A stretch of DNA of 49,033 bases, taken from a candidate division FCPU426 bacterium (lineage in GTDB: Bacteria; Oederibacteriota; Muellerivitia; Muellerivitales; Muellerivitaceae). Where the stretch lies: the NCBI GenBank assembly GCA_003152075.1, contig PLZG01000019.1:1-49033 (forward strand), given 5' to 3'. Positions 5,539 through 46,621 of this stretch are shown here, piece after piece. The notes beneath the pieces were generated by a model, which made no database searches, was not told where the DNA came from, and saw nothing but the letters and a program-made list of their open reading frames with translations. A program made the translations under genes and the position numbers. Within the stretch, counting starts at the first letter, position 1, and the number at the start of each line of letters is the position of its first letter.

Positions 5539-6207
5539 TTGAGTGTGAAGATATCCGATACCTTAAGCCAACTGGTGGAAGAATTGGTTGAGCGGTCCCC
5601 CTTTTTCCGTTCCTGGAAACCGGACATTGTTGACCTTGCCATTTCCCGGAAATTCCTTCTCTCGTTTGATTCGCTGGTCAAAAGCTTCCCGGCGTTAATC
5701 GCGGCCGGAGCCGCCCGCATGACGGACGAGGAAAGCCGGACCGTTCTGGCCGTTAATCTTTACCAGGAATGCGGGGAAGGGGATATCACCAGGACCCATC
5801 ACGCTATTTACCGGAAGTTCCTGGCCACCGCTGGTATCGATGTCTCGAGCATTCAGGAAAATGACTTCGCCCGGGATTGGCGGAATCGGCTTTCCGAGTA
5901 CATCAATAAAACAGCCAGTGTTGGAGAGGCCATCGGGGCCTTGGCGGCGGGGGAATTCCTGGCTCAACCCGCCCTAGGCCGAATTTATCCAATACTTAAA
6001 GCCCACTATCTCCAAGCCGACCAAGAATACTTCACGAAGCACCTGGAATTGGAAACCGAACATGTCAGGGAAATCACGGTCCTTATTTCCAGGCAAGATG
6101 ACAGGGAAGTTCTATCGGGGTTTAAGGTTGGATTGTCGGAATGGGAAACCTACTTCGACCAATTGGCTGAATTCATTTGTGAGAAGCAGTCCGTGGTGGG
6201 GAGTTAG
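5539..6207 (+). CDS. Haem-oxygenase-like (HDO/TENA-type) iron-containing enzyme
   Basis: 222 residues, cytoplasmic, all-helical. The spacing of putative metal ligands fits the haem-oxygenase-like di-iron oxidase/oxygenase superfamily: E77 and H87 in LYQECGEGDITRTHHAI, E139 in GALAAGEFL, and H168, E172 and H175 in FTKHLELETEHVREI, the H-x3-D/E-x2-H hallmark of its third core helix. Members oxidise small organic substrates or process thiamine and PQQ precursors; the substrate here cannot be read. The TTG start has GGAG 8 bases upstream. It is followed on the same strand by a sigma-54 activator with a small-molecule sensor, and a di-iron ferritin-like gene converges on both, suggesting one oxidative pathway (inference). 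Confidence 0.7.
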   Translation: MSVKISDTLSQLVEELVERSPFFRSWKPDIVDLAISRKFLLSFDSLVKSFPALIAAGAARMTDEESRTVLAVNLYQECGEGDITRTHHAIYRKFLATAGIDVSSIQENDFARDWRNRLSEYINKTASVGEAIGALAAGEFLAQPALGRIYPILKAHYLQADQEYFTKHLELETEHVREITVLISRQDDREVLSGFKVGLSEWETYFDQLAEFICEKQSVVGS

Positions 6208-6249: not shown

Positions 6250-6438
6250 TAAGTACAGAAAGTTAGTCCTACCCCAATATTCGAATTTCCTATCAAAATG
6301 AGAATATTTGGACGGAAAATTGAAAAAAAATAACTACCCCTTGTGTTTTGAAGTGCAGAAAGACGTACAATAATATTGATCAAACGGCCACCTTGCCGTC
6401 GATCCACGGCCTCGGAGAATGTCTTTAAGGAACCATTC

Positions 6439-8058
6439 GTGCGCGTTGATGATCTTGACTTAAAAGAACTTTTAGAATTGGATCCCAAGGGGGGACCCGT
6501 TCATTTCGCGGGCCAGAAGGCCTTGATCTGCGACACCCTATCCCATGGGATTCTGCGCAATGAACTCATCGATACTTATGGGAATAAAACGGCCTGGGGC
6601 ATCCTCAGCCGATTCGGTTACATTCACGGCCGAAACATGGCCATGGCCTTAAAATCAAAATTCAAATGGGAAAGTGATGAGGACTGGCGAAAGGCCGGAA
6701 CCCGAATTTTGGCGCTCCAAGGCCTTGTCATGGTGGATCCGGACAACCTCGATGTCTTTGGACCTAAGGGCGGAACTTGGCGCGACTCCTATGAGGCCGA
6801 GCAGCAACTTCTCCTGAAGGGGAGGTCCGACAAGCCCGTTTGCTGGAACCTTTGCGGTTTTATCAGCGGTTACCTGAGCTATTCCCTGGATAAGGAGATG
6901 TATGCCTTTGAGGATAAGTGCATCGGAAAGGGCGACACGGCCTGCCATGTGATGATCAGGTCCGAGGAAGAATGGGGCAAGGTGGCCGGAGGTGATTTGG
7001 CGGTTTTCAAGCGGGTGGGCATTGACGCCACCTTGAAGGAAGTTACGGCGAAACTGAAACGCGCGGAAGCCGAATTGGGTGAGAAAACCCGCAAGCTGGC
7101 GGCATTGGCGCAAGTGGATGATGATCCTGGGGAACTCATGGCGCGAAGCCCCGAGATGCGAAGGTTAATGGAATTGGCCAAAACCATCGCGGGAATCGAC
7201 TCGACAGTGCTCATTACGGGCGAGAGCGGCACGGGGAAGGAACGGGTGGCGCGATTTGTCCACGATTATTCCGCTAAAGCGACGGGCCCCTTTATCGCGG
7301 TGAATTGCGGGGCCATCACGGAGACCCTGCTGGAAAGCGAGCTGTTCGGCCATGCCCGAGGGGCCTTTACGGGAGCGACAGTGGACCGACCGGGACTTTT
7401 TGAGGCGGCCAACGGGGGGACGCTTTTTTTGGATGAGGTCGGCGAGATTCCCATTCCATTGCAGGTGAAGCTTCTGCGGGCGCTTCAGGAGAAAGAAGTG
7501 CGGCGTGTAGGCGAGAATAAAAACCGTTCCGTCAACGTCCGTATCCTGAGCGCCACCAACAAAAACCTGAAAACCGAGGTCGCGGAAAAAAGGTTCCGGG
7601 AGGACCTTTATTACCGCCTGAATGTCGTTGAGTTGGCTGTCCCGTCCCTGCGCAACCGGCGGGAAGATATCCTTCCCCTCGCGCGGCTCCTACTCGCTGA
7701 AGCCACAATGCAAATGAAACGTCCCATCAACGGATTGACCGCCAGCGCGGCTGACCAACTTGTTAGTTATGGTTGGCCAGGCAACGTGCGCGAGCTGGCC
7801 AACGCGATGGAGAGGGCGGTGGCGGTCGCGAAAGGGAATCGGGTTGATATCGAGGACCTTCCTCCCGAAGTCCGCCTAGTGTTACCGATTGTTTCCGAAA
7901 AGGGAGTGCCCCGGTTCTTAAAGGATGTGGAGAAGGATTGCATTCTTAGTGCCCTGGAAAAGACGGAAGGCAACAGGAGAAAAGCCGCCGAATTGATGGG
8001 AGTGGGTGTGGCAACGCTTTACCGAAAACTCAAGGCCTACAAATTGTTGGATAAGTAA
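6439..8058 (+). CDS. XylR/V4R-type sigma-54-dependent transcriptional activator
   Basis: 539 residues. The N-terminal XylR-type sensor (about 1-110: [15 protein letters not shown], then [10 protein letters not shown]) leads into a V4R ligand-binding domain with conserved Cys (about 115-195, including [10 protein letters not shown]), then a coiled linker. The AAA+ sigma-54 activation domain has Walker A GESGTGKE at 261, the sigma-54 contact loop GAFTGA at 308 and FLDEVGE at about 330. The Fis-type helix-turn-helix is the last 45 residues ([19 protein letters not shown]). In XylR and DmpR this sensor binds aromatic effectors. The GTG at 6439 is chosen over an upstream TTG (6376): AAGGA lies 7 bases before it and the product then begins at the family-typical position. 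All activation motifs are intact. Confidence 0.93.
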
Positions 8059-8248: not shown

Positions 8249-9034
8249 TTATTCAAATACCGGCAGGGGCCGCATCCGGCGGCAGCCAAGCTTCACGATC
8301 TCGGTAACGTGAAGCTGCATCATAAATCCCAGGTATTTTTCCTGGGCCAGGGCCAGGCGGCGGCGCTGGTCGGCAGTTTCACACTCCAATAAGATCAAAT
8401 CTTTCCCGTTGGCGATATGGGGCGGTTCATCCTTCTCAATATCGTAGATGGCGTCCATGAGTTCCTTGTCGAACAACCGCTTGAAAATGCTAGTTTCCAA
8501 ATCCGTCATTGAGGAGAGAACGATCTCACCGGCGAATTGGTTGGCGGCGGCGATCTCCGACGCTGTTTTCGCCTCCGTTTGGACCTTTTGCATTTGAACC
8601 AGGATGGGGGGGAGCTCAAACTCGGCGATCCGGGGTTCCGAACCGAAGCGGCGTAACTGCTGGGTGAAAACATCATAGTGGCGCATTTCATCCTGGATCT
8701 GCCGTGCCAGCCTCAATTTCAAATTGACCTGGTTTTCAGGTAAAAGGGTGATCTCGCGGGCTTGGGCCACAGTGCCGAAATACCATTCGCTCCAGGCCCG
8801 GCGGCGCATGTATAGAACCAGGTTCTCTTGGTAAATTTCCGGGGCCAGGGTGAAGAACTCGTAGGTTCTGGAATCGTAAAGGTCGTCCCCGATATCTTTG
8901 GCCCGGTGGTAAAGCTTTTGCATAAAGTCGTTAGGGGTGCATTGGGAGAGTTCGGAGTCGCTCCATTTCGAGTAGGCGGGAACGGAAAGAGGTTTGTCCA
9001 TTACGAGTTGGGCTGTTTTTTCAGTGTTGGGCAT
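8249..9034 (-). CDS. Ferritin-like di-iron protein (PaaA/AurF-like oxygenase candidate)
   Basis: 261 residues, soluble and helical. Two E-x-x-H motifs (E116-H119 in QDEMRH, E203-H206 in DEPPH) plus E83 and E170 make the six-ligand carboxylate-bridged di-iron site of the ferritin-like superfamily. Length and layout resemble single-chain oxygenases or dehydrogenases more than storage ferritins, but I cannot assign PaaA, AurF or MiaE specifically. The ATG at 9032-9034 has GGAG 6 bases upstream and replaces a longer start 18 codons earlier. It is transcribed toward the sigma-54 activator. A dispersed Pro-codon-like repeat (CCCCTCACCC at 9083, then GGGGCGAGGGG) precedes the promoter region. Confidence 0.7.
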   Translation of the reverse strand: MPNTEKTAQLVMDKPLSVPAYSKWSDSELSQCTPNDFMQKLYHRAKDIGDDLYDSRTYEFFTLAPEIYQENLVLYMRRRAWSEWYFGTVAQAREITLLPENQVNLKLRLARQIQDEMRHYDVFTQQLRRFGSEPRIAEFELPPILVQMQKVQTEAKTASEIAAANQFAGEIVLSSMTDLETSIFKRLFDKELMDAIYDIEKDEPPHIANGKDLILLECETADQRRRLALAQEKYLGFMMQLHVTEIVKLGCRRMRPLPVFE

Positions 9035-9127
9035 TCGTTTCTCCACGACTATATTAAGTAAATCCCTGAAAATTACTATCCCCCTCACCCTACCCTCTCC
9101 CTCAAGGGGCGAGGGGATAAGTGGATA

Positions 9128-22148: not shown

Positions 22149-25100
22149 ATGAAAAAAGCCGTTATCACCATGTGCTTTTTTTCCTTTGTTTGTGGACACC
22201 TCTATGCCCAAACGAGCCCCACGGTTATAGCGACTCCTACTGCCTGCAGTACGACCACCTGGACTGCGACAAATTCCCGGACCCCAACTTCTACCTGGAC
22301 CCCTACTTGGTCCAATACTTCCACATTTACCAATACCCCTACCCTGACCTCAACGCCAACAGGCACTTGGTTTACTTCCACCCCCACTAATACAGGGACT
22401 TTCACTTATAGCTTTACCCCATCCTTCACCCCCACGAACACTTTGACTCCCACCATTACTTCCACTCCCACCTTGACCTCGACGAATTGCCCCGGGGGAA
22501 ACGGGCCCAACCTTACTTGGAGCACCAAAGCCCCCATGCCCACCGCCCGGGCCTATTTTGGAGTTGGCGTGGTGAATGGAATCCTTTACGCAGTGGGGGG
22601 ATATAACAATAGCGGAGACCTAAATACGGTTGAGGCATATGATTCCTCGACAAATACTTGGAGCACGAAAGCACCCATGCCAACGGCGCGGCAGGATTTG
22701 GCGGTCGGCGTTGTGAATGGAATTTTATATGCCGTGGGGGGGGACTACTATATTGGCCCGTCTGCGTATACGGTCGGTACGGTGGAAGCCTACAATCCTT
22801 CCACCAACACCTGGAGCACCATGTCGCCGATGCCGGACCCCAAAGCTGGTTTGGGGGTGGCCGTGGTAAACGGAATATTGTACGCCGTTGGTGGGGGAAG
22901 CGTGACCACGATGGAAGCCTATGATCCCTTGAAGGATACCTGGACCCCAAAAGCTCCGATGTTTTATAGCCAAATGGAATTTTCGGTGGGTGTTGTTAAT
23001 GGGATCCTGTATGCCGTGGGTGGCAATTCTCATTATATGAATCAAGCTTATGATCCTCCGACCAATACCTGGAGTTTTAAATCACCTAATCTGCAAGATG
23101 GTTGGATGTCGGCGGGTGGGGTAATCAATGGAATTTTTTATGCCGTTGGCGGGTTCAACTCGATGTATAGCGCAGTGGAAGGTTATGATCCCTTAACGGA
23201 TAGTTGGAGTATCAAAACTCCCCTGCCGACAGGCCGTGAAAATTTATGTGTCGGCGTGGTCAATGGAACTCTTTATGCTTTGGGTGGCACGACGGGGGTG
23301 TCGAGCTACTTAAATACGAATGAAGCGGCCAGCGTTGTTTGTGCCCCCTTTACCGCCACGCCGACCGTTACTTTGACGCCCACCAATTCTTATTCCCCTA
23401 CCATTACTTTTACCCCAAGCAATACAGGGACTCCGACTTCAACCTTTACCTTTACCCCCACTTTTACCGGAACCTGGTACAGCCCCACTCCCACCAACAC
23501 TTTGACAGCAACCTCCACCACAACTTCCACTGCAACCCTCATTTCAACTTCAACCCTAATACCCACCGCAACGGCCACTTCTACCGCCTGCGCGACATCC
23601 ACATGGACTCCTACCTCAACCTTTACCCCTGCCCAGACCTTCACGCCCACCCCGACTCCCACCGGCACCCTCCCTACGGCGACGCCTACCAACACACCCA
23701 CCAACAGCTTTACCTGGACCAATAGCCCGACCATCACCAACACCACCACCATCACGGGGACACCCACCTCCACGCCGACCAGTTGCGGGCCGGGGACAGG
23801 ATTGAACCTGACTTGGAACACCATGGCCCCGATGTCCATCCATCGCGCGGGTTTTGGAACGGGCGTGATCAATGGAATTATCTACGCTGTGGGAGGGGAT
23901 GGGGCAGGTACCGTGGAAGCTTATGACCCTTCAACGAATACTTGGACACCGCGGGCCTCGATGCCCACCCCTCGTTCCTATTTGGGCGTGGGGGTGGTGA
24001 ACAACATTTTGTACGCCGTGGGTGGCTTTACGACAGATGCCGTGAATACGGTAGAAGCCTATGACCCCTGGACGAATACCTGGTCAACCAAAGCTCCCCT
24101 GCTGATGGCCCACGCCTACTTTGGTTTGGACGTCATTAATGGGGTGATCTATGTCGTGGGGGGGGATAGGTCGGGCGGGGGATTCACCAATGACGTTGAA
24201 GCTTACGACCCCTCCACGAACACATGGATTTCCAAAAGCCCCTTGCCTTATTACTCCACTCAACTTTCGGCGGGGTCGGCCAACGGAATTTTATATGCCA
24301 TCGGAGGCCTTTATTCGGGGGATTTACATAATGTGGAAGCCTTCAATCCCTCAACCAATAGCTGGACCGCAATGGCCCCTATGCCGACAGGTCGGGAGTA
24401 TCTTTCAGTCGCCAATCTCAATGGACTTTTATACGCCGTAGGGGGTCAAAACGGCATGGGCAATTTAAATACGGTTGAAGTTTACAATCCCGCCTCGAAT
24501 AGCTGGTCCACCATGAATTCCATGCCTACAGCCCGGGCCGGGTTGTCGCTGGCGGCCGACAATGGGGCCTTATACGCCTTGGGCGGCTATACGGGATACC
24601 CCTTTACTTTTTTAGGACTGAATGAAAGCACGATACCAGCTTGCTCCGCTTTCACCTTCACCCCAACCAATACTTTTTCACCCACTATTACCCTTACGCC
24701 CACCAACACCTTTACGATTACCGCTACCCCCACGGGTACCCTTCCCACCGCAACCATTACCTCTACACTAACTAATACCTCCACCTCAACATTTTCCTCG
24801 ACGTCGACGGGAACCCCAACAAGCACATGGACTACCACCCGTACCGGAACTTTTACCCCTTCACCCACAAAAACCAATACTTCCACGGGGACTCCAACAA
24901 GTACCAATACCTATACCTCAACAATGACTTCAACGAATACCCCGACCGGTACTTGGTTTACCTCCACTCCGACATTCACCTGGACGCTTACCAACACCAA
25001 TACCTTTACCAATATACCTACCTTTACGCCCACCGGATCTGCGACTCCAACTCCCACCAATACTCCCACCTGGACCTATACTCCGGCATGGACCAATACC

Positions 25101-27035
25101 CCGACTTCCACTTGGACTTACACACCTACATGGACATTTACACCTACGGGTTCACCAACTATAACGCCAACTGTCACTAGCACCCCCACCATTACTTCAT
25201 CGTTCACGCCCACCTTGTCACTTACTTTTACCAACACCTTTATTCCAACCTCTACTTTCACGCCGACGATTACCTCCACTGGAACTTTGCCCACTCTTAC
25301 TTTTACCCTCACCTTTACTAATACCCTTTCGCCCACCATTACCGGAACTCCCACATCTGTTCCCACCAACTGCGGCCCGGGAACAGGACTAGATTTCAAT
25401 TGGAGCACAATGGCGCCCATGCCAACGGCACGGGGGACTTTCGCCTCAGGAGTGATTAATGACTTGTTCTACGCGGCGGGGGGCATGTACCAGAGCAGCG
25501 CTTTAAACACCGTGGAAGTTTATGATCCATCGGCCAATAGCTGGGGCACCGTGGCTCCCATGTTGACGAATCGGGGGGAATTCGCGGGCGGTGTCATCAA
25601 TGGAATTTTTTACACTGTGGGCGGTTTTGGGCCTAAGGGGGCTGGAAGTTACGGACCGGTTGGCATTGTGGAAGCTTATGACCCGTCCACCAACAGTTGG
25701 ACCACCAAAGCCCCCATGCCGACCCCCCGAATTGTATTAGCGGTGGGTGTTGTCAACGGCATTCTTTACGCCGTGGGGGGGGAAGGTTACGGAATTAATG
25801 CTTTTAATACGGTTGAGGCTTACAACCCTTCCACTAATTCTTGGAGCAGTGTCGCATCCATGCCAACCGCCCGGGCCAGTTTGGCTGTGGGCGTGATCAA
25901 CGGCATTTTGTACGCCTTAGGTGGATACGATTACACCAACACTTATGCCACGTTGGAGGCTTACGACCCTTCCTTGAATATCTGGACTACAAAGGCCCCC
26001 ATGCCCACCCCCCTTCAGGGTCTATCAGTTGGTGTCCTGAATGGAATACTCTACGCGGTAGGTGGCATAGGACCTACCAACTCGGTTGAGGCTTATGACC
26101 CCTCTGCCAATAGCTGGTCAACCAAGACCCCTATGCTGACGGCTAGAATGGATCTATCGGTGGGAGTCCTTAAAGGGAATCTCTACGCCGTGGGAGGCTA
26201 TGATTTAAGAGTCAACGAGGTCGCTGTTCCTGCTTGCGTCCCCTATACTTCCACGCCGACCATCACTTTCACCCCGACTTTTAGTTATTCGCCAACCTTT
26301 ACCCAGAGCCCAACGAATACTTTTTCTCCGACCATTACTTTAACCCCGACCAATAGTCTTACTATGACCCCAACCAATACACTTTCTCCAACACCCACCG
26401 GCACTTGGTTTACCTCAACTCCTACTTCGACATCTACAAAAACCTATACAGGGACCTCCACTAGTACGTCCACCGGAAGCCCGACCAAGACAGTGACACC
26501 CCCGGCCACTGCCACCAGCACTTTTACCAAAACCAACACCTCAACTTTTACCTGGACACCCGGTACGCCGACCTTCACTTGGACTCCGGCTATCACCCCC
26601 ACCTGGACATTCACCCCTCAAAATACTCCGACGGCTGATGGAACGCCGACATTGTCTTGGACCGTAACCAAGACACCTACCAATACGCCTACAAATACTC
26701 CGACCAACACACCCGTCATTACTTTCACATTTACCCCCACTTTGACCCCGACAGCCACGGCTGGTTCCAAACCGGTCATTTCACCTAATCCCGCCACTGG
26801 GCCAACGGTCCGGCTTTATCCAAACCTTACTTCCGTTTCGAATGTAGAGGTAATGATATTGACCTCCGCCTACCGTAAAGTCAGGGATCAAGTTTTCACG
26901 CAAGTCCAGGTGGGGGCGGCCATCACCCTCGCGCTCACCGACAATTGGGGGCGTTCCCTGGCTAACGGTCTTTATTATGTCGTGGTGAAAGATTCCAATG
27001 GGCAGTTCATTCTCAAGTTGTTGATACTTCGCTAA
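22149..27035 (+). CDS. Giant secreted protein: three kelch propellers on Thr/Pro linkers, C-terminal sorting-type domain
   Basis: 1628 residues. A signal peptide (1-21, ending LYAQ) is followed by alternating Thr/Pro/Ser linkers (about 22-115, 400-545, 832-1072, 1366-1535; unit T-x-T-P-T) and three globular blocks (about 116-398, 546-831, 1073-1364). Each block has six kelch repeats, recognisable by NGILYAVGG and VEAYDPSTNTW, 18 in all. Each block opens with a Cys and a lone beta-strand (NLTWSTKAP, NLTWNTMAP, DFNWSTMAP) and ends with a Cys, which fits a six-bladed propeller closed by its own N-terminal strand and a disulfide. The last 90 residues (ISPNPATGPTVRLYPNLT to ILKLLILR) resemble C-terminal secretion or sorting domains of type 9/FlgD-like kind. 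AAGGAG precedes the ATG by 12 bases. Probably surface-exposed; ligand unknown. Confidence 0.9.
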   Translation: MKKAVITMCFFSFVCGHLYAQTSPTVIATPTACSTTTWTATNSRTPTSTWTPTWSNTSTFTNTPTLTSTPTGTWFTSTPTNTGTFTYSFTPSFTPTNTLTPTITSTPTLTSTNCPGGNGPNLTWSTKAPMPTARAYFGVGVVNGILYAVGGYNNSGDLNTVEAYDSSTNTWSTKAPMPTARQDLAVGVVNGILYAVGGDYYIGPSAYTVGTVEAYNPSTNTWSTMSPMPDPKAGLGVAVVNGILYAVGGGSVTTMEAYDPLKDTWTPKAPMFYSQMEFSVGVVNGILYAVGGNSHYMNQAYDPPTNTWSFKSPNLQDGWMSAGGVINGIFYAVGGFNSMYSAVEGYDPLTDSWSIKTPLPTGRENLCVGVVNGTLYALGGTTGVSSYLNTNEAASVVCAPFTATPTVTLTPTNSYSPTITFTPSNTGTPTSTFTFTPTFTGTWYSPTPTNTLTATSTTTSTATLISTSTLIPTATATSTACATSTWTPTSTFTPAQTFTPTPTPTGTLPTATPTNTPTNSFTWTNSPTITNTTTITGTPTSTPTSCGPGTGLNLTWNTMAPMSIHRAGFGTGVINGIIYAVGGDGAGTVEAYDPSTNTWTPRASMPTPRSYLGVGVVNNILYAVGGFTTDAVNTVEAYDPWTNTWSTKAPLLMAHAYFGLDVINGVIYVVGGDRSGGGFTNDVEAYDPSTNTWISKSPLPYYSTQLSAGSANGILYAIGGLYSGDLHNVEAFNPSTNSWTAMAPMPTGREYLSVANLNGLLYAVGGQNGMGNLNTVEVYNPASNSWSTMNSMPTARAGLSLAADNGALYALGGYTGYPFTFLGLNESTIPACSAFTFTPTNTFSPTITLTPTNTFTITATPTGTLPTATITSTLTNTSTSTFSSTSTGTPTSTWTTTRTGTFTPSPTKTNTSTGTPTSTNTYTSTMTSTNTPTGTWFTSTPTFTWTLTNTNTFTNIPTFTPTGSATPTPTNTPTWTYTPAWTNTPTSTWTYTPTWTFTPTGSPTITPTVTSTPTITSSFTPTLSLTFTNTFIPTSTFTPTITSTGTLPTLTFTLTFTNTLSPTITGTPTSVPTNCGPGTGLDFNWSTMAPMPTARGTFASGVINDLFYAAGGMYQSSALNTVEVYDPSANSWGTVAPMLTNRGEFAGGVINGIFYTVGGFGPKGAGSYGPVGIVEAYDPSTNSWTTKAPMPTPRIVLAVGVVNGILYAVGGEGYGINAFNTVEAYNPSTNSWSSVASMPTARASLAVGVINGILYALGGYDYTNTYATLEAYDPSLNIWTTKAPMPTPLQGLSVGVLNGILYAVGGIGPTNSVEAYDPSANSWSTKTPMLTARMDLSVGVLKGNLYAVGGYDLRVNEVAVPACVPYTSTPTITFTPTFSYSPTFTQSPTNTFSPTITLTPTNSLTMTPTNTLSPTPTGTWFTSTPTSTSTKTYTGTSTSTSTGSPTKTVTPPATATSTFTKTNTSTFTWTPGTPTFTWTPAITPTWTFTPQNTPTADGTPTLSWTVTKTPTNTPTNTPTNTPVITFTFTPTLTPTATAGSKPVISPNPATGPTVRLYPNLTSVSNVEVMILTSAYRKVRDQVFTQVQVGAAITLALTDNWGRSLANGLYYVVVKDSNGQFILKLLILR

Positions 27036-28471: not shown

Positions 28472-29398
28472 ATGAAAATATTGAAGAGGTTGATTTATTT
28501 CGCTCCCTTTTTGATTTTGGGGATATTGCCCTTGGCTTGTTCGAGTACCTTCACCATTGGCCCTTCCAGTTCAACGACTTCGATGGCTACCTCAACGCCC
28601 ACTTTCACCCCCATTCCCGCCTGTGCCATTGGAACGTCACCCACTTGTACACCTACCTATACCCTGACGGCCACTTTTACCGGGACTTCAACCAATACCT
28701 CCACGGCCACCGCGACTCCCACTTATACCAATACCCTCACCAATACTCCCAACGTCCCACCCACGGCAACGGTGACTCCCAATGGAACGACGATTCCCAT
28801 GGGGCCGGTTGTCGTGGGGGCTTTTGACGGGAGTATTATCAATGTGGCTGGTTACACGGTGACGGTTTCGGGAAGTGAGGTTGGTCTTTCCTATAACCGC
28901 CTGGCGGATACGACCGCCTCGGTTACCCTGATCACCCCATCCAACGGATCCATCCCCCTGACATGGACTCAAGACATCAACATGGGCACCTACACCCTTT
29001 CCCAATATTCCTCGGGTACGCAATTTATCTATACCCCGAACGCGGTTTATTCCATCGCGGTTTATGATACCTGGGGCAACGCTTTTTCCACCATGAACGC
29101 TCCCGGGCAGATAACCTTCAACGCCAACGGAAGCTCGGTCACCGCCCTGTATCCGGGGAACGACGACCAGGCCCAAGTTCAGGAATCAGCCCCCGTCCCC
29201 CAGACTATTTTTGTTTCACCCGCGGGGGTCAACGTGGGGTCACCTTACAACTACCCTGTCACCGCCTATCCTAATTCTCCCGCCAGCTATACCACCACCT
29301 ACAGTGCCGGCTTGACGATCACAACTTTCACCGGAAGCCCCGGGGCATGGGGATACTTCGTCGGTAATCAGTCTTTGTCGCTTTCTTTTACTCGTTGA
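28472..29398 (+). CDS. Thr/Pro-linker lipoprotein with beta-sandwich C-terminal domain
   Basis: 308 residues. A lipoprotein signal peptide ends at LPLAC (C23). Residues 24-110 are a Thr/Ser/Pro linker with Cys pairs (PACAIGTSPTCTPT). Residues 111-308 are a beta-rich globular part of Ser/Thr/Gly/Tyr-rich composition (VVVGAFDGSIINVAGYTVTV to QSLSLSF). The layout copies the surface proteins at 22149 and 44939, though without kelch repeats or the C-terminal sorting domain. AGAGGT lies 7 bases before the ATG and a strong terminator follows. Likely exposed on the cell surface; function unknown. Confidence 0.75.
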   Translation: MKILKRLIYFAPFLILGILPLACSSTFTIGPSSSTTSMATSTPTFTPIPACAIGTSPTCTPTYTLTATFTGTSTNTSTATATPTYTNTLTNTPNVPPTATVTPNGTTIPMGPVVVGAFDGSIINVAGYTVTVSGSEVGLSYNRLADTTASVTLITPSNGSIPLTWTQDINMGTYTLSQYSSGTQFIYTPNAVYSIAVYDTWGNAFSTMNAPGQITFNANGSSVTALYPGNDDQAQVQESAPVPQTIFVSPAGVNVGSPYNYPVTAYPNSPASYTTTYSAGLTITTFTGSPGAWGYFVGNQSLSLSFTR

Positions 29399-29848: not shown

Positions 29849-30628
29849 TTACCGGGCTTCGGCGGTCTGCAATTTACCCTTTGAAGCCACTTTTTCTTGA
29901 ACTTTAGATTCGCAAAGATCGAACAAAAGAATTTCAGTGGGACCTTTCGACGTAAATGACACGGAGCTTTCCTCGGTGAAACCCACCCCATCCCCCGTTT
30001 GAAGTTGGAGGTCATTGAGCGAGATTTGACCCTTTACCACATGGAGCCACGCGGTCCTGCTGGGCTTGAGCTCGTAAGCGATATGATTGCCCTTACCGGC
30101 GAATGAGGAATAGATTTGAACGTCCTGTTTCAAGGACAGCGAGGATAGCCTTCCGTCCGAGGAGGCGATCAGCCTTAAAACCCCCTGCCGCTCCGCGTGG
30201 GTAAAAAGTTGTTTGACGACCTTTTGTTTTGGCCCGTCATCCTCGCAAGCGCCACTGCACTCATCCATTTTAAATCCGGCTTGGAAGACGTGCGCCTCCT
30301 CGGATTCGGAGGTGTTAAAAGCGTATTGGTTCGTGTCTTCAGCGGAGTTGTTCCGCCCGAAATCTTTTGTCTCGAGTTTGATGGGTTCTTCCCCATAGGA
30401 TTTATAGACGATCACGCCCTCGCGAACATAAGTCACGACGACCAAGTCTTTTTTCGTGTGGAGGATGAATCCGCCGCCCGGGGAAAGAATTTCCTCGTTT
30501 AATACTTTGAGAATCCCAAAGCTGTTTTTGAGTGGATCGGTGGTGTTTTCGTCGTCAAAGGTTTTCCAGGTTAATTGGTCCTTCGCGTCCAGGTACTGTC
30601 GCTCGTCCGACTTTATCACTTTAATCAA
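29849..30628 (-). CDS. Pirin-like bicupin lacking the usual metal ligands
   Basis: 259 residues from the TTG at 30626-30628, which has GGGGGAG 6 bases upstream and gives the family-like start IKVIKSDERQYLD; a longer reading from an ATG 10 codons earlier adds MACHGPGEIK without support. Two cupin halves are apparent, the first around LHTKKDLVVVTYVREGVIVY (about 56-75) and the second around TAWLHVVKGQISLNDLQL (about 195-212). Active pirins/YhhW carry H-x-H near TYV and a later His and Glu; here the first is H-T-K-K and the others are not seen. A Cys-rich insertion MDECSGACEDD sits mid-protein. Probably a non-enzymatic or differently liganded member. Confidence 0.75.
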   Translation of the reverse strand: MIKVIKSDERQYLDAKDQLTWKTFDDENTTDPLKNSFGILKVLNEEILSPGGGFILHTKKDLVVVTYVREGVIVYKSYGEEPIKLETKDFGRNNSAEDTNQYAFNTSESEEAHVFQAGFKMDECSGACEDDGPKQKVVKQLFTHAERQGVLRLIASSDGRLSSLSLKQDVQIYSSFAGKGNHIAYELKPSRTAWLHVVKGQISLNDLQLQTGDGVGFTEESSVSFTSKGPTEILLFDLCESKVQEKVASKGKLQTAEAR

Positions 30629-30828
30629 TTTAATCTCCCCCGGCCCATGACAGGCCATGAACCATAGAATTTTGCTGTTATTGAGCCTTTAAGTAGAGCA
30701 AGGAACGAGCCATGTAATTCGCAGAATTAACGCACTTATTGGGGGATAATTCGTCGAAACACATCGTATTGGTAAGAACAGTATCGTTTTGATCTGGGGG
30801 CACAAGGAAAACGGGAGCTTCTATTGGC

Positions 30829-33887: not shown

Positions 33888-33919
33888 ATCAAAACGAGGC
33901 TCGTCAAAATCACTTTGAT
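33888..33919. promoter_or_regulatory. ATCAAAA inverted half-sites upstream of a sigma-54-like promoter
   Basis: ATCAAAACGA at 33888-33897 and ACTTTGAT at 33912-33919 form an imperfect inverted pair with a smaller palindrome ACGAGGCTCGT between. The half-site resembles the perfect palindrome at 39167-39200. It lies about 55-85 bases before the promoter-like site at 33971. Confidence 0.3.
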
Positions 33920-33970: not shown

Positions 33971-33985
33971 GAGTACGTATCTTGC
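33971..33985 (+). promoter_or_regulatory. Weak sigma-54-like promoter
   Basis: GAGTACG-TATC-TTGC matches the -24/-12 layout TGGCACG-N4-TTGC except at the first G of the -24 pair and the base before it. It continues with CTTTAATGGG, similar to the strong site at 39302. The gene for the Cys-rich mini-protein starts 42 bases downstream. Confidence 0.35.
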
Positions 33986-34027
33986 CTTTAATGGGCTGTT
34001 GATCCATCAAACTTAAAGGAATTAAAA

Positions 34028-34288
34028 ATGGAAAATTCACAAGAAGAAGCCTCGAAAAAATGCCAGTCCGGTTGCGGCTGCCAATGCCATAACAAATGCG
34101 GTATGGGTAGGATGGGCGGCTGTGGTTGTGGCGGATTTATGAAGGGGTTGTTCGTGGGCGTGGTGCTCTTCGGCCTTTTCATCTGCCTATCGGATCATTT
34201 TTGCAAGCATCGGATGGATTATTGCAATATGAACGGTTCGTCCATGATGCATAACATGCAACCCGAATCCCAAATGACGAATAAATAA
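34028..34288 (+). CDS. Cys/Met/His-rich single-span membrane mini-protein
   Basis: 86 residues. The N-terminal soluble part has seven Cys packed as C12, C16, C18, C20, C24, C32 and C34 plus His21. One membrane helix is at 37-55. The C-terminal part has C59, C66, two His and eight Met (MNGSSMMHNMQ). Such a composition suggests binding of soft metals such as copper on both sides of the membrane, but no named family is recognised. AAAGGA precedes the ATG by 7 bases. It stands alone between a sigma-54-like promoter and a short gap without a clear terminator. Confidence 0.7.
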   Translation: MENSQEEASKKCQSGCGCQCHNKCGMGRMGGCGCGGFMKGLFVGVVLFGLFICLSDHFCKHRMDYCNMNGSSMMHNMQPESQMTNK

Positions 34289-39166: not shown

Positions 39167-39200
39167 GATCAAAATGATAAAACTTTTAATCATTTTGATC
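39167..39200. promoter_or_regulatory. 34-bp palindrome, candidate enhancer for a sigma-54 activator
   Basis: GATCAAAATGAT (39167-39178) and ATCATTTTGATC (39189-39200) are perfect 12-bp inverted arms around a 10-base AT spacer. It ends about 100 bases before the sigma-54 promoter at 39302, the usual enhancer position. It is too AT-rich and T-poor at the end to be a terminator. The binding protein is unknown. Confidence 0.5.
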
Positions 39201-39301
39201 GGGGTCGCGGTTCATCAAACTCATTAAATTTTAAGATCCCCGGATTAGGCCTTTTCCATTCACGAAAAGATGGTTTATGTTCCCATTTCCCTTTTTTCGC
39301 C

Positions 39302-39316
39302 AGGCACGGTCCTTGC
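39302..39316 (+). promoter_or_regulatory. Near-consensus sigma-54 promoter
   Basis: AGGCACG-GTCC-TTGC matches the -24/-12 consensus TGGCACG-N4-TTGC at every position but the first. A start near 39328 would give a leader of about 37 bases ending in AGGAGGT before the CsbD-like gene. A T-run lies just upstream and the palindrome at 39167 is a plausible activator site. Confidence 0.75.
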
Positions 39317-39364
39317 CTTATATAAGCGGGATTGTTTACGCGCAAACTTCTTCAGGAGGTAGTT

Positions 39365-39607
39365 ATGTATATTAGCGGCGGAATAGGCTTGTTAGTACTG
39401 GTAGTTGTTGTTGTTTTGATCCTTCGTTGGATGAACTCAAATAATGACAAGTTGAAAGGGTCGATCAATAGCGCCGTTGGAAGTTTAAAGAAAGGCGCTG
39501 GGAGTGTCACTGGTAACAATCACCTGGAGGCCGAAGGTTCGATCCAAAAAACAAAGGGCCGGGTCCAGAAATTAAGTGGAGCTGTTAAGGACCTATTTAA
39601 ATCATAA
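39365..39607 (+). CDS. Membrane-anchored CsbD-like stress protein
   Basis: 80 residues. An N-terminal membrane helix (about 4-23: GGIGLLVLVVVVVLILRW) is followed by a hydrophilic helical part (28-80) that resembles CsbD: DKLKGSINSAVGSLKKGAGS, then a second KGRVQKLSGAVKDL unit. CsbD proteins are small and stress-induced, with no known activity. The ATG at 39365 has AGGAGGT 5 bases upstream, so a reading 11 codons longer is rejected. Transcription is probably by sigma-54 RNA polymerase, unusual for a CsbD gene, which is classically sigma-B dependent in Bacillus. Confidence 0.75.
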   Translation: MYISGGIGLLVLVVVVVLILRWMNSNNDKLKGSINSAVGSLKKGAGSVTGNNHLEAEGSIQKTKGRVQKLSGAVKDLFKS

Positions 39608-44938: not shown

Positions 44939-46621
44939 TTGATGAATTTTAATTGTTCCAGGTCTTTTAACACACCCGCAAGTCCAGCACTTCAATTTAC
45001 CGCAACCAAAACTCCCCCTGCGATCCAAACTTCAACCAACTCTCCCACCCAAACCCCCTCTCTTACTGCTACACAGACCATGACCAAGACCAACACTGCC
45101 ACCACTACACAATCCCCAACAAACTCACCCACCAATACCCCGACATTAGTTTTTACCAATACTTTTACAGGAACCTTAACTTTACAACCAACCAGCACTC
45201 CTTCGAATTCACCAACTGATTCACCGACCTTAACTTTTTCCGTGACTCCGACCCCTACCAATGCGAATTCCGCCACGCCCACCAATTCATCCACGGATTC
45301 ACCGACGCTTTCTCCTACCATTACCCCCACTCCCACTTGTGGAAATCTCGCGAGTTTTGGAAACACCGACAATGGCACTCAAATTAATTGGTCGACGAAT
45401 ATGGGCGTGAACAGTGAACAATTGTCCCTGCCGGCAATCCTTCAAAGTATTTCGGTGCGGAGCGCGAACGCGGGAACGCTTCAATTGGGAATTTATCAAG
45501 ATAATGGCTCTAATTATCCCGGTAATCTGTTGGTACAGACCGGCCCTATGAGCGTGGTCGCGGGTTGGAATACGCTGCCTATTCCTAATACCGTTGTTAG
45601 CCCGGGGACCTATTGGTTGGCCTATTCTGGTTGTTCTGCTTCGAACCCGGCGACGATTTATTACGACGTCCCAGGGACTAGTTATGGGACCTTTACTTGC
45701 GCGATGCAAGATCCTTTTCCTTCCAGTTCGGTGATAGCCGGTAGTGTGCGATTTTGTATGCACGCAAATTATTGTCTCGGTCCCGGTGTTTTAACCTACA
45801 CCCCCACTGGAACATTTACCCAAACGCCCACTTGGACATTGACCCCAACCCCAACAGGCCTCAATACGCCACCTCCCACTGATACACCTCTTTGTGGAAG
45901 TCCCAACCAATACGGTAACAGCGCATCATTCACCTATTACAATTATCCATTTAGTCTCAGTTTTACCCGTATGGTTGCTTCAGGGCCTGGAACTGTCATG
46001 AATCTTAATGCTTATGTTTTATACCCCAATAATGGTTATCTGCAATCGGGTCTTTACGCGGATAACGCGGGCCAGCCTTCCACGCTTCTAGCCGCTTCCG
46101 TTCCCATGACGGTTACAAGCGCGGGCTGGTGGAGCATGGATATCCCTGACACGCCCATCTCAGGCCCGGCTACTTATTGGATCGCCATTCAATGCAGTAA
46201 TGCCAGATATGTGGGAATTACTTACGACAGTTTTCACAACTCCAACGATCAATTTCAATCAACCAGCAATCCTTTTGGTTCCATGCCGGCATCGGTCCCC
46301 GCCCTTGCCGCCACGAACCTCAATTGGTCTGTTTTCGCGAAAGTTTGCCAGGCTGCAAGCGTTCCCATCGACACGCCAACGATTACGATTTCTCCGACTC
46401 CAACACCAGTTCCGTGTGGTTACCCTGGTTTAACCTGCACTCCCACTTGGACCTATACGCCATGTCCTTATCCGGGTTGCTGGGTCACTTGTATCGCAAG
46501 CATGACTCTGACTCCAACGTCGACTCCAACAGGTACCCTCAGTCCTTCTCCCACACCCTGCGCTTGCACGCCCACTCCAACCATCGCGCCATGCTATGGT
46601 TTTATCAGTGGTAGTTGTTGA
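44939..46621 (+). CDS. Thr/Pro-linker surface protein with two Cys-bracketed beta domains; 5' end disrupted
   Basis: 560 residues from the first usable codons (TTG-ATG at 44939-44944). Linkers of T-x-T-P-T type (about 20-130, 285-315, 470-545) separate two related beta-sandwich modules. Module 1 runs from CGNLASFGN to FCMHANYC and module 2 from LCGSPNQYGNSAS to VFAKVC; both contain SGLY/LGIYQDN and GPATYWIA/PGTYWLAY phrases and are bracketed by Cys. No export signal is encoded after the ATG, but upstream in the same frame lies a hydrophobic stretch (SLFPLLILIL) without a start codon. A TTG at 44869 with GGGGGAG just before it would join that stretch if the A6 run at 44899-44904 were A5. A frameshift, phase-variable tract or sequence error is likely. 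Confidence 0.75.
   Translation: MMNFNCSRSFNTPASPALQFTATKTPPAIQTSTNSPTQTPSLTATQTMTKTNTATTTQSPTNSPTNTPTLVFTNTFTGTLTLQPTSTPSNSPTDSPTLTFSVTPTPTNANSATPTNSSTDSPTLSPTITPTPTCGNLASFGNTDNGTQINWSTNMGVNSEQLSLPAILQSISVRSANAGTLQLGIYQDNGSNYPGNLLVQTGPMSVVAGWNTLPIPNTVVSPGTYWLAYSGCSASNPATIYYDVPGTSYGTFTCAMQDPFPSSSVIAGSVRFCMHANYCLGPGVLTYTPTGTFTQTPTWTLTPTPTGLNTPPPTDTPLCGSPNQYGNSASFTYYNYPFSLSFTRMVASGPGTVMNLNAYVLYPNNGYLQSGLYADNAGQPSTLLAASVPMTVTSAGWWSMDIPDTPISGPATYWIAIQCSNARYVGITYDSFHNSNDQFQSTSNPFGSMPASVPALAATNLNWSVFAKVCQAASVPIDTPTITISPTPTPVPCGYPGLTCTPTWTYTPCPYPGCWVTCIASMTLTPTSTPTGTLSPSPTPCACTPTPTIAPCYGFISGSC

Follow-up and report, generated by a model that had tools for sequence, protein, structure and literature searches.

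The window, by which is meant the whole 49,033-nucleotide stretch of DNA that was analysed, contains a csbD-type gene preceded by a -24/-12 promoter sequence and, further upstream, by a palindrome (Table 1). An initial annotation had placed all three elements here, and all three are present where it placed them. The csbD gene has an AGGAGG ribosome-binding site directly 5' of its ATG (39365), and its product scores above the Pfam cut-off for CsbD (E=5.4e-14; 52.2 bits against a cut-off of 40). The -24/-12 element has boxes of the TGGCAC/TTGC type that are typical of sigma-54 promoters, with the GG at 39303-39304, the GC at 39315-39316 and the correct GG-N10-GC spacing. The arms of the palindrome are 12 bp each, and 102 bp separate the palindrome from the -24/-12 site. 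Only one other perfect inverted repeat of this kind (arms 12 bp or longer, loop 20 or shorter) exists in the 49-kb window. Sequences matching the -24/-12 element with up to two mismatches number 8 in the window as compared with 6.2 expected, which alone is not significant; the csbD element is significant because of its genome-wide recurrence, and not because of the promoter match in the window. A sigma-70 promoter was also considered for csbD and none plausible was called; the csbD paralogue on contig C12 lacks the TATATAA that follows the -12 box here.

Table 1. Position of the regulatory elements and genes in the window
Feature	Position	Strand	Remarks
XylR_N-V4R-AAA+-Fis HTH enhancer-binding protein, candidate activator	6376..8058	+	likely start GTG 6439
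Pirin/quercetinase-like gene (Pirin_C_2)	29849..30658	-	paralogues at C5 and C75 with paired enhancer
Sigma-54 -24/-12 site TGGCTCGTTCCTTGCT	30697..30712	-	
Single half-site ATCGTTTTGAT upstream of the pirin-like gene	30783..30793	.	
Second paired enhancer, ATCAAAACGAG-N10-ATCACTTTGAT	33888..33919	.	
Weak -24/-12-like site GAGTACGTATCTTGCC, without GG, tentative	33971..33986	+	score 9.1
Gene for small Cys-rich membrane protein, 86 aa, downstream of second enhancer	34028..34288	+	
Enhancer (UAS), inverted half-sites GATCAAAATGAT / ATCATTTTGATC, 10-bp gap	39167..39200	.	same pair in C12 csbD paralogue
Sigma-54 -24/-12 promoter AGGCACGGTCCTTGCC	39302..39317	+	predicted start near 39328
csbD-type gene, 80 aa, N-terminal membrane helix fused to CsbD domain	39365..39607	+	alignment with C12

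The 4.1-Mb assembly, which belongs to the candidate phylum FCPU426, was searched for the palindrome with the reversed sequence as a control. The half-site GATCAAAATGAT is present in 13 copies in the genome and in 0 in the control, and half-site pairs of the form TCAAAANGA-N8-18-TCNTTTTGA occur 15 times as compared with 0. Allowing up to two mismatches gave about 25 pairs in the genome, and allowing up to three with the gap fixed at 12 gave 36 pairs against 3 in the control. The aligned half-sites have the consensus RATCAAAAYGAK. Positions 0-8 are conserved partly through the selection made by the search; 31 of 34 half-sites have an A at position -1, which was not selected, and almost no information is carried by the sequence further out. 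This combination of conserved half-sites and random flanks argues that the palindrome is a protein-binding site rather than a copied repeat. The annotation had described a 34-bp palindromic enhancer; the palindrome itself was confirmed, whereas the fixed length was not, as the conserved unit is a pair of half-sites whose cores lie 10-15 bp apart, the gap being variable. It had also anticipated further palindrome-promoter pairs, and the search for these bore it out, with at least 11 more pairs in the genome and 2 in a related genus. The csbD gene is thus one member of a predicted regulon with roughly 20-25 sites.

Sigma-54 sites were scored 30-130 bp outward from each palindrome, and those with a score of at least 10 were counted. 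Such a site lies 41-107 bp away from 12 of the 15 pairs, as compared with 4.3% of random positions. In two more pairs the -24/-12 site is a weaker one with CTTGCT, 88 and 105 bp away, and none was found near the remaining pair, on contig C111. Sigma-54 sites also accompany pairs that have one or two mismatches, at the second sodB gene (C81:9876), the third pirin gene (C75:29153), a rhodanese gene (C99:44453) and two genes for surface-type proteins (C75:20605 and C75:2650). The genome encodes rpoN (C21:8351-8485; E=2.7e-17), and the same palindrome-promoter layout, with spacings of 102 and 60 bp, is found in the same-family genome G005. The putative enhancer is recurrently coupled to predicted sigma-54 promoters.

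Among the probable targets are genes for pirins, ice-binding-like proteins, a rhodanese, a YHS protein and a Transgly_assoc protein, together with two csbD genes and two for Fe/Mn superoxide dismutases (SODs). Pfam searches at the targets identified an Fe/Mn SOD behind a DUF2934 gene, pirin/quercetinase proteins and CheW proteins; a gene for a PAS-rich kinase lies on the divergent side of the C75:25606 site. The C12:16554 site has a gene for a Cys-rich membrane protein together with one for a response regulator, and the Cu/Zn SOD gene that is divergent at this site lacks a clear sigma-54 site. Judged from a subset, since many targets are without known function, the collection looks like a set of stress and envelope genes. 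The 55-kb contig C75 of this genome (G000:C75) carries eight enhancer pairs, a V4R activator gene and runs of genes for ice-binding-like and T/P-rich surface proteins, and is possibly a stress or surface island. In the window, large secreted proteins with Thr/Pro-rich repeats of the TPTNTPT type, one of them with Kelch-like motifs, are encoded at 22149-27035, 28472-29398 and 44939-46621.

Besides a broken copy and weaker relatives, the genome encodes ten proteins in which the sigma-54 interaction domain is strong. The V4R family comprises six genes or remnants: the window gene (C37:6439), one each on C75 and C5, and C81:18200, C81:3267 and C37:94234. The activator type found in the window has an XylR_N domain above the cut-off (E=1.6e-23), a V4R domain at 30.1 bits against a cut-off of 31 (E=5.2e-7), and Sigma54_activat and HTH_8 domains, and it aligns with MopR (phmmer E=4.7e-16). 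The only named relative of its sensor domain is from an FCPU426 bacterium, G005. The V4R activators have the Walker A and GAFTGA motifs in the AAA+ domain and the Fis HTH, with the exception of the paralogue at C81:18200-19396 (L043), in which Walker A is degraded (GERGMGEE) and the second motif reads GAFPGA. This copy can probably neither hydrolyse ATP nor contact sigma-54, and it could act as a negative regulator. The C81:3267 gene (L040) encodes a V4R activator without the sensor domain, and C37:94234 (L041) is the broken copy, with a stop codon. All five readable V4R C-termini share one recognition helix, ending in (A/S)YK, which is unlike that of all other activators. In the window, a Haem_oxygenas_2 gene (iron-containing redox enzyme; 5539-6207) lies directly before the V4R activator gene and a gene for an unclassified protein (8249-9088) lies after it. 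Autoregulation of the V4R genes was considered and rejected, as no clear case of an enhancer with a promoter was found before them; single half-sites only, such as that at 6292-6302, are located upstream.

The distribution of activators and palindromes was compared with that in eight relatives of the same order. V4R activators are present only in the genome itself, G003 and G005, and palindromes only in the genome itself and G005, where the V4R activator gene runs off its contig. No paired site was found in G003, which has a V4R activator and is 65% complete; the nearest relative has no palindrome, and the other families of the phylum gave one weak match to the motif, in G028. Of 25 sites, 14 are located on the four contigs with V4R activators. 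These contigs make up 6.2% of the genome, a clustering with a binomial p of about 3e-11, or about 1e-4 when C75 is excluded. In addition, the rhodanese gene is a target in this genome, and its homologue adjoins the V4R activator in G005. The regulon could be sigma-54-dependent with its palindrome bound by another activator, namely the GAF-type protein C62, the TPR-type protein C10 or the response regulators C74, C106 and C6. All five are canonical activators that the genome encodes, and the C62 gene has an exact half-site upstream. However, each of the five has orthologues in relatives that lack the palindrome, and the sites cluster with V4R genes instead, so that we consider their involvement unlikely. 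Among the eight relatives, the V4R proteins are the only canonical activators whose distribution fits that of the palindrome. The matching distribution, the clustering and the elimination of the other activators indicate that V4R proteins are the likely binders. Ligand-type activator control, as previously suggested for csbD, agrees with this result, the best candidates being the XylR_N/V4R one-component activators, while nitrogen-type control found no support.

It is considerably less probable that the palindrome is the operator of an unrelated regulator, either a repressor or a sigma-70 activator, with the -24/-12 sites being incidental. The half-site is A+T-rich and itself near-palindromic, as for many dimeric repressors, but the frequency of good sigma-54 sites at 41-107 bp and the lack of a plausible sigma-70 call before csbD both speak against an operator of this kind. 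The notion that the palindromes are dispersed REP or MITE-like repeats or transcription terminators is very unlikely, since, although there are numerous copies in one genome and none in its nearest relative, their flanks have no common sequence, their gap is variable, no T-run follows the palindrome and no terminator or Rfam family was called there.

The sensor domain of the V4R activator aligns with those of MopR, PoxR and DmpR, and the zinc-holding Cys3-Glu and the pocket Trp are kept. The phenol-anchoring residue, His106 of MopR (PMC10715001), belongs to a His-Trp dyad that defines the phenol sensors and not the whole XylR/DmpR subfamily; here the Trp is kept and the His is replaced by Leu. 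This replacement makes phenol improbable as the signal and the protein a putative relative of MopR rather than a phenol sensor of the MopR kind, and the signal is probably a different one. In G005, the activator gene is near genes for nitrite/sulfite reductase, RIC-type repair and rhodanese proteins, as read by eye from the sequence, and this neighbourhood hints at redox or nitrosative stress.

Our preferred interpretation, to which we assign a probability of roughly three in four, is that the csbD element belongs to a stress-type sigma-54 regulon whose enhancers are bound by DmpR/MopR-type V4R activators that respond to an intracellular signal and act through DNA looping. The inverted RATCAAAAYGAK half-sites located 41-107 bp upstream of -24/-12 promoters would be the targets of the XylR_N-V4R proteins. 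An intracellular signal, probably not phenol, would trigger these proteins, and their AAA+ domains would then remodel the sigma-54 RNA polymerase by looping of the DNA, such that the csbD, SOD, pirin, ice-binding-like, envelope and rhodanese genes would be switched on together. This interpretation is built on the recurrence of the motif, the predicted promoters next to it, the domains of the activators, the match in distribution and the clustering of the sites, from which we infer the identity of the binder, the signal, the DNA looping and a function in stress. Points against it are the V4R activator of G003 with no paired site found in that genome, the lack of a clear enhancer and promoter before the V4R genes, the two csbD genes that do not have the element, and the three of 15 pairs with a weak -24/-12 site or none. 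A more tentative and rather doubtful extension is that the V4R proteins with the common recognition helix, including the sensor-less C81:3267 and the probably ATPase-dead C81:18200, form a mixed-oligomer network on shared enhancers. Such a network would be a sigma-54 general stress response that fills the role of SigB, RpoS or EcfG in other bacteria and operates through several ligand sensors.

V4R-sensor sigma-54 activators are known from pollutant catabolism. The proposed system is nearest to the DmpR/MopR activators by descent and to the SigB/RpoS/EcfG regulons by target set. Like DmpR/CapR, MopR, PoxR and XylR, it has activators with an XylR_N + V4R sensor, an AAA+ domain with GAFTGA and a Fis-type HTH, and a palindromic UAS upstream of a sigma-54 promoter (PMC7264223). 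It differs from the DmpR/MopR group in having several paralogues with one common recognition helix, a Leu in place of the phenol His, and many unlinked stress-type targets, where the known members have one catabolic operon. As in the SigB, RpoS and EcfG regulons, csbD appears to be co-regulated with other protective genes, and in B. subtilis it belongs to the SigB set (PMC7824861); those regulons depend on an alternative sigma-70-type factor, whereas sigma-54 and an ATP-dependent activator are predicted here. Envelope or stress genes are also under sigma-54 in the case of PspF and further stress activators of this type (PMC3162934; D. vulgaris regulome, PMC4641369), but with other sensors and targets; neither csbD nor V4R is mentioned in the paper on the D. 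vulgaris regulome. The literature searched, from which subscription papers are mostly absent, gave no published case of sigma-54 control of csbD or of a stress regulon governed by V4R proteins. The V4R activators of this uncultured phylum thus probably govern dispersed protective genes, which would be a new use of a regulator type from pollutant degradation and illustrates how a ligand-gated activator may expand into a regulon. The analysis provides a family of candidate regulators, a defined DNA code and a list of targets, which are testable in a surrogate host.

The csbD paralogues differ in gene layout. The 16-bp -24/-12 sequence on C12 is identical to that in the window, with different flanks, and the C12 palindrome is that of the window with one half-site change. 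On C12, the promoter is followed by a membrane mini-ORF of 21 codons, approximately 130 bp and then csbD (C12:33583-33738, L008). The alignment indicates that this stretch of approximately 130 bp is missing from the window, where the mini-ORF and CsbD are joined in frame. The fusion in the window is probably the derived state, because the mini-ORF and csbD are also separate ORFs in the C37:97678 copy. Two of the four csbD genes in the genome have no paired element; a single half-site, TATCAAWATGATTCG, is conserved in two genomes upstream of csbD genes that lack the paired enhancer (L004, C54:92053, and L064, G003:C113).
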